Shown in pieces: positions 21,649-26,682 of a stretch of 26,682 nucleotides of DNA. Each line of letters begins with the position of its first letter. The stretch's first letter is position 1. The stretch is from a virus. Location: positions 1 through 26,682 of IMG/VR virus record IMGVR_UViG_3300009515_000020. The stretch is one strand, 5' to 3'. The position numbers and the translations under genes were made by a program. Under the pieces are notes generated by a model that saw only the letters and a list, made by a program, of their open reading frames with translations, did not search any database and was not told the origin of the DNA.

Positions 21649-23046
21649 GTGGAATACACCCCGACGAAGACGCTGTCCAAATTCCACGCCTCGACGGCAC
21701 TGGCCCGTTTCGTCATCGGGCCGCTGGGCTCAGGCAAGTCGCACGCCATGATAATGGAGCTGCTGCGCCGGGCATGCGCGCAGGAACCCGACCGGCACGG
21801 CATCCGCCCGACCCGCTTCTCGATCACCCGTAACACGCTGCCGCAGATCAAGCAGACCTGTCTGGCCGACATCCAGCAGCTCTTCAGCGAGATGGGCATC
21901 ATCCACTATAAGGTGTCCGACCAGACCGTCTCGCTGCGCCTGGAACTGCCGGACCAGAGCCGGGTCGAGAGCGACTGGCTGCTGATGCCCATCGAGAAGG
22001 CGGAAGACACCAGAAAGCTTCTGTCGTTGCAGCTCACCGGCGCCTGGTGCTCGGAGTTCCGCGAGCTGAACTACGGTATCGCCGCCGCGGTGCTGGGTCG
22101 TGTCGGGCGCTACCCGTCACCGGCTCGCGTGCGCCCGACATGGCGCGGTCTGGTGGCCGAGAGCAACCCGTTCTCCGAAGGCTCGGACTGGTATCGCAAC
22201 CTGGTCCTGGAGCTGCCCCAGCGCTGGGCGTTCTGGAAGCAGCCCGGCGGCCTCGACAGCGAAGCCGAAAACCGCAACAACCTCGACCCCGACTACTACG
22301 AGCGGCTGGTCGAAGGCATGGACGAAGAGTGGGTCAAGGTGCACGTCCACGGCCAGTATGGCGACGACATGTCGGGGCAGGCGGTCTGGGGCCGCGCTTT
22401 CGACTACGCCTACCACACGGCCGACGACCTGCTGGTCAACCCGATCCTGCCGATGATGATCGCCATGGACCTCGGGCGGACCCCGACGGCGCTACTCTGT
22501 CAGGTGGATACGCGGGGCCGCCTGCTGGTGTTCAAGGAGATCGTCAGCGAGGACATGGGGCTGAACCAGTTCATCGAAGAACTGCTGGTCCCGGTCCTGT
22601 TCGAAAACGACTACCGCACGGCGACCAAGTTCGTCGTCGTGGACCCGGCAGCCCGCATCAAGTCGCAGCTCAGCGAAGAGACCGCTTTCGACGTTTTCAA
22701 GAACCACGGTTTCGCCGCGCACGGCGCGGTGACCAACGACATACCGCCGCGCCTTCGGGCAGTCGAAGGGCTGATGCGCCAGAACCGCGGCGACAGCGCC
22801 GCCCTGCTGATCGACCGCAACCGCTGCCCCTCCCTGATCCGCGCCATTCGCCACGAGTACCGCTACAAGCGCAAGAAGACCGGCTCGCTGGACGACAAGC
22901 CGGACAAGCTGCATCCCTGGTCGGACCTCGCCGACGCCCTGCAGTACGCCTGCCTGAGCGTCAACGCCAACCTGCCCGGGCGGGTGATGCGCCTGGCGAC
23001 GCCACGACCCGCGCGGCCGAAGATTACCGCCAAGGGGTGGACCTAA
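21649..23046 (+). CDS. terL: terminase large subunit, ATPase/nuclease (465 aa)
   Basis: GTG start at 21649. Walker A GPLGSGKS at residues 24-31; a Walker-B-like segment TGAWCSEFREL at about 130-140 with the acidic pair position; then the RNase-H-type nuclease with D274 (MMIAMDLGRTPTALL), D332 (KFVVVDPAARI) and D426/D429 (HPWSDLADALQYA). All expected catalytic acids are present. It packages genome DNA into the prohead through the portal and cuts concatemers. It ends 2 nt before the converging sulfotransferase-like gene, with no terminator hairpin between them. Confidence 0.96.
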   Translation: MEYTPTKTLSKFHASTALARFVIGPLGSGKSHAMIMELLRRACAQEPDRHGIRPTRFSITRNTLPQIKQTCLADIQQLFSEMGIIHYKVSDQTVSLRLELPDQSRVESDWLLMPIEKAEDTRKLLSLQLTGAWCSEFRELNYGIAAAVLGRVGRYPSPARVRPTWRGLVAESNPFSEGSDWYRNLVLELPQRWAFWKQPGGLDSEAENRNNLDPDYYERLVEGMDEEWVKVHVHGQYGDDMSGQAVWGRAFDYAYHTADDLLVNPILPMMIAMDLGRTPTALLCQVDTRGRLLVFKEIVSEDMGLNQFIEELLVPVLFENDYRTATKFVVVDPAARIKSQLSEETAFDVFKNHGFAAHGAVTNDIPPRLRAVEGLMRQNRGDSAALLIDRNRCPSLIRAIRHEYRYKRKKTGSLDDKPDKLHPWSDLADALQYACLSVNANLPGRVMRLATPRPARPKITAKGWT

Positions 23047-23048
23047 CG

Positions 23049-23816
23049 CTACCATAGCAGGTTGGAGTAGCCGGCATAGTTCAGCCAGGGCTTGATTTCT
23101 TTCTGGGCCGGCCGGCTGTAGCGCAACCACTCCCAGGCATCCGGCAGCGCTTTCTTTATGGGAGCGACGTCACCGGCGGCATAAGCGGCATGCAGCGGCG
23201 TCGACGTACGCCAGGTTTCGCGGCGGGACCGCCAGGTCGCGACAAAGTCGTGGATGTAGTACCGGACGTCGTCCCGATAGACGTCGTTTCCGGGAAGCCC
23301 TCCGCGCAAGAGGACGTGCCCCAACAACCCTGCGCGCTTTTCGGCGGTAAGCTCTTCGCTCGCCAGGTCGAGGGGGACCAGGGCCGCGTTCAGCTTGTCG
23401 AACCGTTCCGGCGCCTCGTTCCAGCTCTGCCTGTCGATGCGGCTGCCGCGGGCATGATGGCTGATAGCCACCGCCAGGGGGTCCCTGAGCGGCACCAGGG
23501 GGCGCAGTCCGGTCAGCAAGACGGCGGCGTCGATAGACGGCGAGGAGCCGGCCAGCAGATGCGTCCAGTGCACGAGGAACCTGTCGTTGCGACGGGTTTG
23601 GCGTTTTACGGGAGCGGCAAGCATCGGCGTGACGCCGGCGGCACCGGGACAGGCGGCCAGGAAGTCGAGTAGGAACCGGGTACCGGTGTGCGGTAGGGAT
23701 AGTAGAAAGACGGGCCGATGGGGATTTGCACCCTCACCGGCCCGCTTCTGCATCGGAGAACCGCGACCACCGTAATTGTCGAGGCTACCGAAGGACACCA
23801 CTCCGTCGGTCGACAT
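23049..23816 (-). CDS. sulfotransferase-like protein (255 aa)
   Basis: Residues 35-53 (PVFLLSLPHTGTRFLLDFL) fit the 5'-phosphosulfate-binding P-loop of PAPS-dependent sulfotransferases, although the usual PKSGT lysine is His43. Residues 105-120 (RPLVPLRDPLAVAISH) fit the 3'-phosphate motif (R111, S119). Length suits a compact sulfotransferase. It would transfer sulfate to a hydroxyl or amine; the acceptor is unknown. AGGGA precedes ATG 23816, which is 3 nt after the RHH stop, so the two genes form an operon converging on terL. A different P-loop kinase-like role cannot be excluded. Confidence 0.75.
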   Translation of the reverse strand: MSTDGVVSFGSLDNYGGRGSPMQKRAGEGANPHRPVFLLSLPHTGTRFLLDFLAACPGAAGVTPMLAAPVKRQTRRNDRFLVHWTHLLAGSSPSIDAAVLLTGLRPLVPLRDPLAVAISHHARGSRIDRQSWNEAPERFDKLNAALVPLDLASEELTAEKRAGLLGHVLLRGGLPGNDVYRDDVRYYIHDFVATWRSRRETWRTSTPLHAAYAAGDVAPIKKALPDAWEWLRYSRPAQKEIKPWLNYAGYSNLLW

Positions 23817-23819
23817 GGA

Positions 23820-24038
23820 CTATCCCTTTTCCGGCAACTTGTCAATCACAGGTCCGACGGTAGCGGCGAGGCCGGCGGCAGCCTGCCGCCCCCAGTGGTT
23901 GAGGTAGAGGTCGAGCGCTCGTCGGAGATGCTCGCTGACGGGGAGACCAGTCCGCTTCGAGACTTCTTCGAGCAGGCTCATCTGGGTCTGGCCGAAGTAG
24001 AAGTTACCGCGAACCATGGGGGTGTCTGACTTGGACAT
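23820..24038 (-). CDS. ribbon-helix-helix DNA-binding protein (72 aa)
   Basis: A 72-aa protein with a beta strand at about residues 11-17 (GNFYFGQ), helix 18-29 (TQMSLLEEVSKR), turn TGLP, and helix 33-47 (PVSEHLRRALDLYLNHW). This order and spacing are those of CopG/Arc-type RHH regulators, which bind DNA as dimers through the strand. A short C-terminal tail (AAAGLAATVGPVIDKLPEKG) may mediate dimer contacts. GGAG lies 8 nt before ATG 24038. The upstream region carries repeats that could be its operators, suggesting autoregulation; this is inference. Confidence 0.78.
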   Translation of the reverse strand: MSKSDTPMVRGNFYFGQTQMSLLEEVSKRTGLPVSEHLRRALDLYLNHWGRQAAAGLAATVGPVIDKLPEKG

Positions 24039-24072
24039 GAGGAAGGCTCCGGGAGGTTGTGCGTTTCTGCGG

Positions 24073-24136
24073 CTGAGTGTTTCTGCGATTGGGCGGCTGA
24101 GTGTCTCTACGGCTGAGTGTCTCTACGATTGGGCGG
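24073..24136. repeat. direct repeats CTGAGTGTYTCTRCG
   Basis: Three copies start at 24073, 24097 and 24113, spaced 24 and 16 bp; a degenerate fourth (GCGTTTCTGCGG) is at 24061. Copies 1 and 3 are followed by ATTGGGCGG. The irregular spacing resembles operator sites rather than coding repeats. Confidence 0.8.
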
Positions 24137-24137
24137 T
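24127..24137. repeat. inverted repeat GATTGGGCGGT, left arm
   Basis: The 11-bp sequence GATTGGGCGGT has its exact reverse complement ACCGCCCAATC at 24342-24352. The arms enclose 204 bp holding the AT-rich core and both palindromes. Confidence 0.75.
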
Positions 24138-24282
24138 TGCGCCAAGTGGGTCTAGCATACTTATGTTTGGTTTTCTAGGAAAATTGTGGGTAGGGTACCT
24201 AAACGTCCCGCTGACGCCGGACCGCCTGGCCAACCGGGGGTGGGGGTTTGGCCTGTATGAGGCACTAGGCGCCCCTCTATGG

Positions 24283-24309
24283 ATAAGGTGACGCGCCGCG
24301 TCACCTTAT
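24283..24309. repeat. dispersed palindrome, copy 1 (longest arms)
   Basis: ATAAGGTGACGCG, centre C, CGCGTCACCTTAT: 13-bp perfect arms around the 17-bp core GTGACGCGCCGCGTCAC (24288-24304). It can form a stable hairpin or bind a dimeric protein. A TATGAGGCACTAGG direct repeat (from 24256 and 24307-24320) precedes this copy and the next, so the pair arose by duplication of a unit of about 40-50 bp. Confidence 0.85.
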
Positions 24310-24325
24310 GAGGCACTAGGGCAAA

Positions 24326-24344
24326 GGTGACGCGCCGCGTCACC
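24326..24344. repeat. dispersed palindrome, copy 2
   Basis: GGTGACGCG, centre C, CGCGTCACC: 9-bp arms, identical core to copy 1, 39 bp downstream. It lies about 25 nt upstream of the 269-aa gene start. Confidence 0.85.
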
Positions 24345-24352
24345 GCCCAATC
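24342..24352. repeat. inverted repeat GATTGGGCGGT, right arm
   Basis: Exact reverse complement of 24127-24137, located just upstream of the ribosome site of the 269-aa gene and overlapping the end of the second palindrome. Confidence 0.75.
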
Positions 24353-24369
24353 ATCGAAAGGAAATCCCG

Positions 24370-25179
24370 ATGGCTACCGACAAGAACGCAATCCCCAAGC
24401 TAGTGACGACCTGGGCGGGCAACCTCGCGAAAGCGGCCGGCGAAGCGGAAACGCTCGGCGCCAAGTCGGCGACCCGCATCATTGACGAACTGGCGAAGGC
24501 CGGCGAGGCGTTGGCGAAGGCCGGTATCGTGGTCGACAGCCCGGCCTTGAAGAGGGCACTCTTCGACCCGATGTTGGATGCTCGCCACGTCGCGAGTGGC
24601 GAAACGGCGCGCAAGCCTCGCTATTACGAGGCAACGCTCGTCGTGACGCGCTACGCGGAGGTCAAGATTGCCTCCGAGTACGCGGAAAAGGTTCACGCCG
24701 CCAACGCCGCCGACCTCAAATCGGGAAAGGGTGTGGGCGACTTGACCTACAAAGCGCTCAGGTTCCTGAGGAAGTGCGAGACGTCTAAGACCCGCCCGAC
24801 CCTGGGCGGGTTCCGGGAGGAACTTGGCGTCACCCCGGAAGCGCTGGAGAAGCGCGCCAGCGACGAGGCTACGGCGAAGGCCGAGGCCGAGGCGTTGAAA
24901 AAGTTGTCGCCTCAGGAGCGCTTCGCCAGGACCCTGGCCGAGAGGTTCGGCGGCGACGGCTTCGACCAGAAGTCGGTGCAGGCGGCGCTCGCCGCCGTCC
25001 GCGCGATCAAGGACGTCGCCAAGGTGAAGGCCGAGGCGAAGGCCGAGGCGAAGGCCGAGGCCAGCGCGCCGGTCACGCTAGATGAGATCATCGAACCGCC
25101 GGCGGCACAGTCTCAGGCTGAGCTAATCGCTCAGGTGGTGGCCCAGGCTGTGACAATGGCGCTCGCCGCCAGGAAGTGA
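24370..25179 (+). CDS. hypothetical Ala/Lys/Glu-rich protein of the early region (269 aa)
   Basis: ATG 24370 follows AAAGGAAA at suitable spacing. The N-terminal 60 residues are helical and Ala-rich (LAKAAGEAETLGAKSATRII). A compact middle domain (about 80-165) includes YYEATLVVTRYAEVKIASEY and DLTYKALRFLRKCET. The C-terminal part is a charged coiled coil with a KAEAKAEAKAEA run (about 219-231) and an amphipathic tail. No catalytic motif was seen and no family recognised. The stop codon TGA lies inside palindrome copy 3, and a strong terminator follows, so this is a single-gene transcription unit downstream of the repeat-rich control region. Confidence 0.8.
   Translation: MATDKNAIPKLVTTWAGNLAKAAGEAETLGAKSATRIIDELAKAGEALAKAGIVVDSPALKRALFDPMLDARHVASGETARKPRYYEATLVVTRYAEVKIASEYAEKVHAANAADLKSGKGVGDLTYKALRFLRKCETSKTRPTLGGFREELGVTPEALEKRASDEATAKAEAEALKKLSPQERFARTLAERFGGDGFDQKSVQAALAAVRAIKDVAKVKAEAKAEAKAEASAPVTLDEIIEPPAAQSQAELIAQVVAQAVTMALAARK
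25027..25062 (+). repeat. three tandem 12-bp repeats (KAEA)
   Basis: AAGGCCGAGGCG repeats three times in tandem (last copy ends GCC), encoding KAEA x3 in the 269-aa protein. A prime site for repeat-number change between relatives. Confidence 0.9.
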
Positions 25180-25192
25180 CGCGCCGCGTCAC
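25176..25192. repeat. dispersed palindrome, copy 3 (contains a stop codon)
   Basis: Exact core GTGACGCGCCGCGTCAC. Bases 25177-25179 are the TGA stop of the 269-aa gene, so the element is fused to the end of the coding sequence. Confidence 0.88.
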
Positions 25193-25196
25193 CAGG

Positions 25197-25240
25197 AAGC
25201 GACCCGACCGGGAGTTTGCCCGGTCGGGTCGCTTTCTTTT
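25197..25240 (+). terminator. intrinsic terminator after the 269-aa gene
   Basis: AAGCGACCCGACCGGG (25197-25212) pairs perfectly with CCCGGTCGGGTCGCTT (25219-25234) around loop AGTTTG, followed by a T-rich run TTTCTTTTGTGTTTT. A classic strong rho-independent terminator on the plus strand, 17 nt after the stop codon. Confidence 0.95.
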
Positions 25241-25301
25241 GTGTTTTGAGCACTCGGCCTTTTGATGATAGCGCTTAATGCTAGCTAAAGTGGTGCGCTC
25301 C

Positions 25302-25633
25302 AATTATCCATTTTCCTATCCAACAGGGGTCAAAAAATGGATAGTAAAATGGATAATTACTTATTTTCTCGTTCGTTTACGGGAACGAGGGCAATAATAA
25401 GATTTTGGCCCTCTAATTATCCATATTTTATGGATAATTAAAAAAAATGGATATGATAATGGATAATTGGAAACACCTGCAAAACTGCCATATATATATA
25501 AAATATCATCTAATTATCTATTATCCATGTTTTTCCGGAATATACTACGTAGAGGCAAAAAAGTTGGAGCCTCCAACTTTTTTAGCCTAAGGGGTCTTAT
25601 TCGGGAAAAAAAATGGATATTTGGATAATATAA
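25302..25633. repeat. TGGATA iteron array (ATGGATAATTA consensus)
   Basis: Sites in either orientation: 25302-25311, 25337-25345, 25349-25359, 25414-25424, 25430-25440, 25447-25455, 25459-25469, 25511-25521, 25521-25528, 25613-25620 and 25621-25630. Two pairs (25337/25349 and 25447/25459) repeat with a 12-bp period. 25414-25424 and 25430-25440 form a perfect inverted pair, TAATTATCCAT and ATGGATAATTA, with a 5-bp spacer. Confidence 0.85.
25555..25587. terminator. bidirectional terminator-like hairpin
   Basis: AAAAAAGTTGGAG, centre C, CTCCAACTTTTTT (25557-25583), with flanking GGC/GCC. The T-run on either strand makes it able to terminate transcription from both sides, insulating the iteron island from the downstream genes. 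Confidence 0.85.
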
Positions 25634-25687
25634 CCATTCTAAGGTATATCATGCCCACTGGAGTACCACCGAGATACAACCTACAGT

Positions 25688-25735: not shown

Positions 25736-25750
25736 TCTGGGAGCATCCCA

Positions 25751-26070
25751 TGACGACCCTACAGCAAGTTACCGCCTTAACTAACGACCTCGTTCGTGTA
25801 AACGAGGAACTTTCTAAACTCGACCTGCAGCGCGACAAGCTGGTGACGCGCCGCGTCACCCTGCGTGACGCCATCGCCGAGCAGCGGCTCGCCCTGGATG
25901 GCGAGCTTGACGCCCTGGCCGGTTACGACACCGACCAGATCGTTTCCCCGCCCACCCGCGCGCCGGAGGCCACACTGGCGCTCCAGGGTAGACTTCTCAA
26001 TGCCGGCATGATCGTCGCTGGCATCGTCGTCGCGGTCGGCGTCGTCTTTGCCCTGGTCCACCCCGCCTGA
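25751..26070 (+). CDS. coiled-coil protein with C-terminal membrane helix (106 aa)
   Basis: I chose ATG 25751 (MTTLQQVTALTNDLVRVNEE) with GGGAG 6 nt upstream; ATG 25651 with TAAGG is possible, but the added residues look non-coding. Residues 1-50 form a charged coiled coil, and residues about 80-104 (LLNAGMIVAGIVVAVGVVFA) one membrane helix, giving a tail-anchored topology. Palindrome copy 4 lies in frame and encodes VTRRVT (about residues 32-37) within the coiled coil. Function unknown; an early membrane-associated phage protein is plausible. Confidence 0.75.
25842..25860. repeat. dispersed palindrome, copy 4 (inside a coding sequence)
   Basis: GGTGACGCG, centre C, CGCGTCACC, with core identical to the intergenic copies, lying within the 106-aa gene and read in frame as VTRRVT. 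Exact conservation inside a gene implies recent insertion or selection on the DNA itself. Confidence 0.88.
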
Positions 26071-26158: not shown

Positions 26159-26662
26159 ATGCCACCCGAGAACCCAACCGGCAAGCCGCGCACCTTCTAC
26201 GTCGTGCTTGTCCACAACACGAACTGCCATGAGGTTCACTGCTTCACCGCGAACCGCGTCCAGGCGGACGCCTGCTTCCTGGAGTGTGCCGAGCGCAACG
26301 AGGCCATGGACGAACGGCACTACCTCACCATGGCGACCCTCGACAACACGACGTCCGAAGAGGCCGCGGTATCGCTGCGCTTCCTGATGGAGGCCAGCCT
26401 CTACGACCTCGTAGAGGCCCGCTGGCTGCCCTGGTGCCCTGACATGGACTTCCCCATGCCCGAGGGCGCCATCGACGCCAGGCGGCTCTCCGAGGGCTGG
26501 GAACAGGCCGCTCAGCTCGGTCGTGACGTGGGCAAATACCTCTCCCGCGACCGTATCGACCCGCCGTACATGACCGACGGCAGCCGACCGCCGCAGGAAA
26601 CCGTCGACCACGCCGACGCGCTGCTCTCTGCCCTGATGGCGAAGCACGCCTCGAAGCACTAG
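26159..26662 (+). CDS. hypothetical protein (167 aa)
   Basis: ATG 26159 follows GGAGG with 5-nt spacing. The protein begins MPPENPTGKPRTFYVVLVHN, then TNCHEVHCFTANRVQADACF, an alpha/beta-looking N-terminal domain with several Cys/His, followed by an acidic middle (DERHYLTMATLDNTTSEEAA) and a helical C-terminus. No membrane segment or known motif. It is the third gene of the plus-strand early cluster, followed by a palindrome half-site. Function unknown. Confidence 0.82.
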   Translation: MPPENPTGKPRTFYVVLVHNTNCHEVHCFTANRVQADACFLECAERNEAMDERHYLTMATLDNTTSEEAAVSLRFLMEASLYDLVEARWLPWCPDMDFPMPEGAIDARRLSEGWEQAAQLGRDVGKYLSRDRIDPPYMTDGSRPPQETVDHADALLSALMAKHASKH

Positions 26663-26673
26663 CACTCCACCCA

Positions 26674-26682
26674 GGTGACGCG
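26674..26682. repeat. dispersed palindrome, copy 5 (truncated by window end)
   Basis: GGTGACGCG, the exact left arm of the palindrome, is the last sequence of the window, 12 nt after the stop of the 167-aa gene. Its position matches copy 3 at the end of a gene, so a full copy probably continues outside. Confidence 0.7.

Follow-up and report, generated by a model that had tools for sequence, protein, structure and literature searches.

The dispersed partition sites of phage N15 are a few inverted repeats spread over part of its genome. In the published accounts of Cluster A mycobacteriophages, the stoperators (the sites of the L5 repressor) number more than 20 and up to 30 per genome, are dispersed over promoter regions and short intergenic spaces, and are asymmetric 13-mers that follow the direction of transcription and are recognised by a monomer, their motifs differing between phages (PMC9283540, PMC6550527). 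By the same accounts, dispersed silencing sites are best documented in actinobacterial phages (PMC9283540, PMC6550527). The palindromic elements of Rickettsia, as described in PMC10969869, are about 150 bp long, code for a conserved peptide and are inserted in frame. Among open-access titles and the opening lines of abstracts, no recognised account of dispersed palindromes in the phages considered here was found, which is a weak negative.

The window, the whole stretch of DNA analysed here, is a virus record of 26,682 bases and represents a fragment. Its structural genes, among which the portal, major capsid protein and endolysin were matched, run leftward and its terminase genes rightward, while an early-type arm begins at 24370 and continues past the right end of the record (Table 1). 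A 19-letter palindrome, GGTGACGCGCCGCGTCACC, with the structure GGTGACGCG-C-CGCGTCACC (a 9+1+9 dyad), is found at 25842-25860 and is referred to as copy 4. The sequence-only reading held this copy to be the same as the intergenic copies, which is borne out for copies 1 and 2 (19/19 bases equal) but not for copy 3, which is equal at 18/19 bases and is not purely intergenic, the TGA within it ending the 269-aa gene (stop codon 25177-25179). When up to three mismatches are allowed, the window contains eight matches, representing four places that are each counted on both strands, against a mean of 0.06 and a highest value of 2 in 100 shuffles of the window. All four full copies fall inside 1.6 kb and share their centre base on the + strand, and copy 1 lies at the core of a longer perfect inverted repeat of 27 nt (24283-24309). 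The final bases of the record, 26674-26682, are identical to GGTGACGCG, the left arm of a probable fifth copy.

Table 1. Positions of the palindrome copies and of neighbouring features within the window.
Feature	Position	Strand	Context
Palindrome copy 1	24287..24305		Upstream of first rightward gene, early-type arm
Palindrome copy 2	24326..24344		Starts 44 nt before start codon of 269-aa gene
Palindrome copy 3	25175..25193		One mismatch; overlaps stop codon of 269-aa gene
Palindrome copy 4	25842..25860	+	In frame within 106-aa gene, residues 32-37
Probable copy 5, partial (left arm GGTGACGCG)	26674..26682		Just past stop codon of 167-aa gene (26660-26662)
106-aa gene carrying copy 4	25750..26070	+	No detectable homologue
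269-aa gene	24370..25179	+	First gene of rightward early-type arm; copies 1-2 before it, copy 3 at its end
72-aa ribbon-helix-helix protein (PF12651)	23820..24038	-	Divergent from 269-aa gene; candidate DNA-binding protein
Intrinsic-terminator-like hairpin	25194..25237	+	Immediately 3' of copy 3

Several other features of this part of the window may be recorded. The motif TATGAGGCACTAGG precedes copy 1 and recurs before copy 2 (24256-24320), as if a unit had been duplicated. The AT-rich intergenic region at 25270-25640 contains repeated and inverted ATGGATAAT motifs (for example at 25302-25322/25338-25358 and 25414-25440) and looks like an origin or promoter region, and within it a 27-nt perfect inverted repeat, AAAAAAGTTGGAGCCTCCAACTTTTTT (25557-25583), forms a hairpin resembling a two-way terminator. 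A 255-aa protein encoded at 23049-23816 matches nothing in PHROG, in Pfam or in the compared records. The assembly may have broken at position 26682, since the record stops where the left arm of a palindrome copy stops.

That copy 4 is read in frame, as had been proposed from the sequence, is confirmed, with the codons GTG ACG CGC CGC GTC ACC coding for VTRRVT. The 106-aa ORF has a codon-position GC content of 0.76/0.41/0.77, the same profile as the portal, capsid and terminase genes, and therefore looks coding. Its product has no confirmed homologue in viral_contigs (62 pattern matches checked) or among 49 records and no PHROG or Pfam match, the ORF having been taken in these analyses from 25753, one codon after the ATG.

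The palindrome is neither a host repeat nor a common viral sequence. An exact 17-mer is present in eight viral stretches and the 19-mer in 52 bacterial or archaeal stretches, with one site in each of the eight and in each of the 52, so that the many copies per bacterial genome that characterise REP-type host repeats were seen in none of the 52 matching genome stretches. None of the eight viral loci is related to the window, the highest total being 46 bits (L009). With a looser 14-base pattern, none of the viral matches listed has more than two copies, with two copies occurring in L257 and L307 (the stretches being parts of contigs), and 76 loci from these listed matches yield five window-protein matches, one of which is a 32% TerL match in L266. 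In L257 (1613-1661), a viral contig without a window-protein match, two GTGACGC-N3-GCGTCAC dyads are situated 32 bp apart, in the manner of a tandem operator.

The nearest annotated phage, as judged by three proteins, is Rhizobium phage RHph_TM3_14A (RHph; TerL 42%, portal 54%, capsid 65%), which has Rhizobium etli as its host. TerL alone gave no viral relative (two pattern matches, none confirmed), whereas a two-sequence capsid alignment recovered at least 580 confirmed matches in IMG/VR, of which the best 80 loci were used. Thirty-four of the contigs behind these loci, taken mainly by length and mostly genome fragments, make up a set of 36 records together with RHph and a Photobacterium plasmid, with near-duplicates kept in. 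The portal suggests that the phage lineage is podovirus-like. In 17 of the 36 records a repeated TTAC/TTAT-type dyad of the record's own exceeds the maximum of 10 shuffles. The other 19 have no such family by the exact criterion, including the long contigs G002 and G013, which carry many core genes; in G025 and G042 a family of this type emerges once mismatches are allowed. The five richest records contain 44-60 sites in 48-65 kb, or roughly one per kilobase, and with up to two mismatches their site counts far exceed the shuffle means (G004 60 versus 0.7, G022 59 versus 0.7, G035 60 versus 1.6, G024 50 versus 1.5 and RHph 44 versus 1.3). The dyad of RHph, GTTACC-N6-GGTAAC, is unlike that of the window and occurs at 44 places; its exact form is found 15 times in the 61-kb phage genome and in none of three bacterial genomes of 5.6-5.7 Mb. 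Among viral loci with a minimum length of 8 kb, dispersed exact families of at least three copies are present in 15 of 51 from the lineage (13 of the 15 being of the TTAC/TTAT type) and in two of 47 unrelated ones; 51 bacterial or archaeal loci, with a minimum length of 6 kb, contain none.

Five further records exceed the shuffle maximum with non-TTAC families, namely the Photobacterium plasmid (a weak AGACTA-N8 family, 3 versus 2), G011 (3 versus 2), G016 (4 versus 2), and G008 and G014 (both 2 versus 1). The G016 repeat was set aside as likely coding, because its centre is fixed and asymmetric. With mismatches allowed, GC-rich motifs are also more numerous than in any of three shuffles, for instance in G002 (CGTCGA-N5, 31 versus at most 20), in G011 (39 versus 26), in G014 (17 versus 7) and in G037 (24 versus 9), as well as in some other records. 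About ten small early proteins with an AMLLG-like motif, apparently a paralogous family, are encoded at 21650-25026 and later in RHph (L013).

Among the 44 sites of RHph, 23 are located in genes, eight on gene edges and 13 between genes, in a genome that is 90% coding. The sites concentrate at gene boundaries, 17 of the 44 having a stop codon and 13 a start codon no more than 10 nt away, against a null of 2.5 each, the two counts overlapping where gene ends are adjacent. The consensus V-T frame accommodates 16 of the 23 in-gene sites, another frame six, and the consensus-stop frame one, which is mutated; copy 4 of the window is likewise in the V-T frame. In the closest pair tested, G024 against G017, fourfold positions in the in-gene half-sites are identical at 44/46, compared to 1742/2799 (62%) in the rest of the genes (p 1.7e-7), while the reverse direction, G017 against G024, gives 44/46 versus 1631/2666. 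Spacer positions in this pair are identical at 20/28. No silent-position conservation is observed in more diverged pairs (RH/G010 3/6, G010/RH 6/11, RH/G022 3/8 and G022/RH 4/12), as expected if the sites turn over. The sequence-only reading had offered an internal binding site as one explanation of copy 4, and this receives indirect support from the dispersed dyads in the genes of the relatives and from the silent-position conservation in the one close pair.

No relative shares the palindrome of the window, in which the half-site is GTGAC rather than GTTAC, and the window copies would belong to the same kind of system by virtue of what is shared: the lineage genes and a GTNAC-N7-GTNAC layout (GTGAC-N7-GTCAC in the window). 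The window has its N7 spacing in common with G034, G035 and G029, and exact GTAACC-N6 dyads in L232/L233 indicate that the third base of the half-site is variable. The early arm of the window has four sites in 2.6 kb, or 1.55/kb, compared to 1.0-1.7/kb in four relatives, the early-arm limits of which were set by hand. Relative to the first rightward gene, the window has sites at -83 and -44 and one on the stop codon; among the relatives, the equivalent gene has a site within 100 nt upstream in 5/11, within 130 nt downstream in 6/11 and both in 3/11. The structural 24.2 kb of the window (1-24200) has no clear site. A 12-base core gives seven degenerate matches there versus 1.8, a weak excess that is reached by 2/120 permuted motifs, and the 18-base dyad gives none at three mismatches, one versus 0.36 at four and eight versus 3.0 at five. 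The closest analogue is G007, in which all seven sites, five of them identical (TTACTCGCGAGTAA), fall within the first 3.6 of 14 kb, so that its set too is confined to the early region; they adjoin a gene of the g28 type and a divergent gene with a weak ribbon-helix-helix match (E 0.003).

The g28 family is a candidate for the site binder. In all 11 loci fetched with g28, the GTTACC-N6 dyads number 10-39; the query, however, was RHph-like, two of these loci are contigs already used, and the encoded protein is identical between L232 and L233 and nearly so between L234 and L235. The association is weak evidence, since the 11 loci are closely related and G001, which has a g28 member, contains only two exact dyads. 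The g28 protein is modelled as all-helical (mean pLDDT 82.6, pTM 0.61), and its Pfam matches are weak, being below the cut-off or above E 0.007. A Foldseek comparison against the PDB gave a best E of 1.1 and a second comparison a Z of at most 6.1, leaving a known fold possible, while two matches in BFVD (E <= 0.001) are both phage proteins without a known function in the table. No g28 member is detectable in the window or in G046. The 269-aa gene is the positional equivalent in the window, without detectable homology to g28, and its product has no confirmed homologue in viral_contigs (423 pattern matches) or among the phage records. Ribbon-helix-helix matches are present in nine of 49 records, and a protein of this type was rejected as the general site binder, with only G029 and G007 matching among the 17 site-family records. 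HTH_7 matches occur in five of 29 records, all under the cut-off, with none in the window, and when 65 RHph proteins were compared with Pfam (25 of 33 families listed), a few helix-turn-helix matches emerged, which are not tied to the sites.

On balance, we consider it reasonably probable that copy 4 is one of a set of phage-specific, dyad-symmetric sites that are dispersed over the genome and bound by a dimeric, probably phage-encoded protein; that it is a DNA-level binding site belonging to a dispersed set is, taken by itself, likely. Most likely, a phage-encoded dimeric protein with sequence specificity would bind the dispersed dyads, and the bound protein would repress or block transcription of the early arm in an operator- or stoperator-like role or, as the next likely outcome, would organise the genome. 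Transcriptional silencing is a plausible output, if short of probable, and genome organisation or segregation a somewhat unlikely one. The site is carried within codons, copy 4 being read as VTRRVT and the third frame containing the TGA that is used as a stop at copy 3, and the gene tolerates the palindrome because two of the three frames are open. A hairpin in the transcript, serving as attenuator, terminator or processing site, could make use of a 9-pair stem, and the shared centre base on the + strand and the location of copies 1-3 upstream or at the end of a gene, with a terminator-like hairpin following copy 3, would agree with this. Copies 1, 2 and 4, however, have no T run downstream, the mismatch in copy 3 is uncompensated, and the sites of the relatives are found in genes of both strands. 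Their dyad partner columns also vary close to independently, which favours a dyad recognised as DNA by a dimeric protein, although one column pair exceeds independence (G022 columns 7/12, 54 versus 42.3) and double changes are masked by the choice of sites with few mismatches. An RNA hairpin seems quite unlikely. Copy 4 could also resemble the other copies for protein-level reasons or by accident. VTRRVT would suit a charged helical surface, yet with the chance level of 0.06 matches and a probability of 0.0037 that this peptide takes exactly these six codons (codon usage from four genes of this phage), such an origin is highly improbable.

Identical copies within a gene and between genes would also be produced by a short palindromic mobile element, of the Rickettsia type or MITE/REP-like, that inserts in frame. 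Across 826 site-homologue pairs, homologues have a gap at 33% of the in-gene sites compared to 13% of control windows, and a gap of at least four residues at 15.5% compared to 3.6%; four-residue gaps occur 31 times in the homologue versus six times in the site-bearing protein, and at 11 of 131 sites most homologues lack at least four residues. This is not the case at the other 120, however, and gap lengths show no peak at six residues (13 versus 6.2 expected, an excess smaller than at three or four), while gaps exceed the control in both directions, as in loops. Some insertion, or a location in loops, may thus apply to the in-gene sites of the relatives. The Rickettsia-type element entertained in the sequence-only reading is disfavoured by the length of only 19 bp and by the single copy in all 52 bacterial or archaeal and all eight viral stretches, and the mostly independent variation of the half-sites also argues against mobility, making a mobile element improbable. 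If the sites served instead to organise or segregate the phage genome, through condensation, partition or nucleoid-like looping rather than transcription control, their presence in late as well as early regions of the relatives would be accounted for, as would the more even than random spacing in RHph, G022, G004, G024 and G035 (CV 0.54-0.76, p 0.035 to below 0.0002). The Photobacterium plasmid, with its related capsid gene and a ParA gene, points the same way. Against this, spacing is not regular in G034 and G046, the other two of the seven records tested, site density is greater in the early arm in all four relatives compared, the clear copies in the window are confined to the early arm, and the plasmid has no TTAC-type family. 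This role in place of transcription control appears rather unlikely. Returning to the favoured set of protein-bound sites, we would only tentatively extend it to a system common to the phage lineage, in which a protein on evenly dispersed dyads of about 17 bp, some within codons, would silence or fold the whole genome and its specificity would diverge as in immunity groups; the binder may be the all-helical g28 family or a positional substitute.

Among the known systems, the Rickettsia palindromic elements resemble the palindrome in being repeats that occur in frame inside genes and elsewhere, and differ in their length of about 150 bp against 19 bp here (27 nt at copy 1). The partition sites of the N15 type are likewise scattered inverted repeats, and a scan of ten window proteins against PHROG and Pfam revealed no partition protein. 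The likeness to the Cluster A stoperators lies in the many sites over one phage genome and in their phage-specific motifs, whereas the sites here are dyads of 14-19 bp, 23 of the 44 in RHph are located in genes, and the phages belong to a different lineage. A second, unrelated lineage with dyad-symmetric sites, many of them located in genes and constrained at the DNA level, would point to repeated origins of this layout and to protein sequences that bend around a genome-wide binding grammar. Since an isolated phage, RHph_TM3_14A, carries 44 predicted sites, this can be tested directly. The sites described here are thus stoperator-like but dyad-symmetric; as they are symmetric, they are not members of the Cluster A stoperators, though they may work like them.
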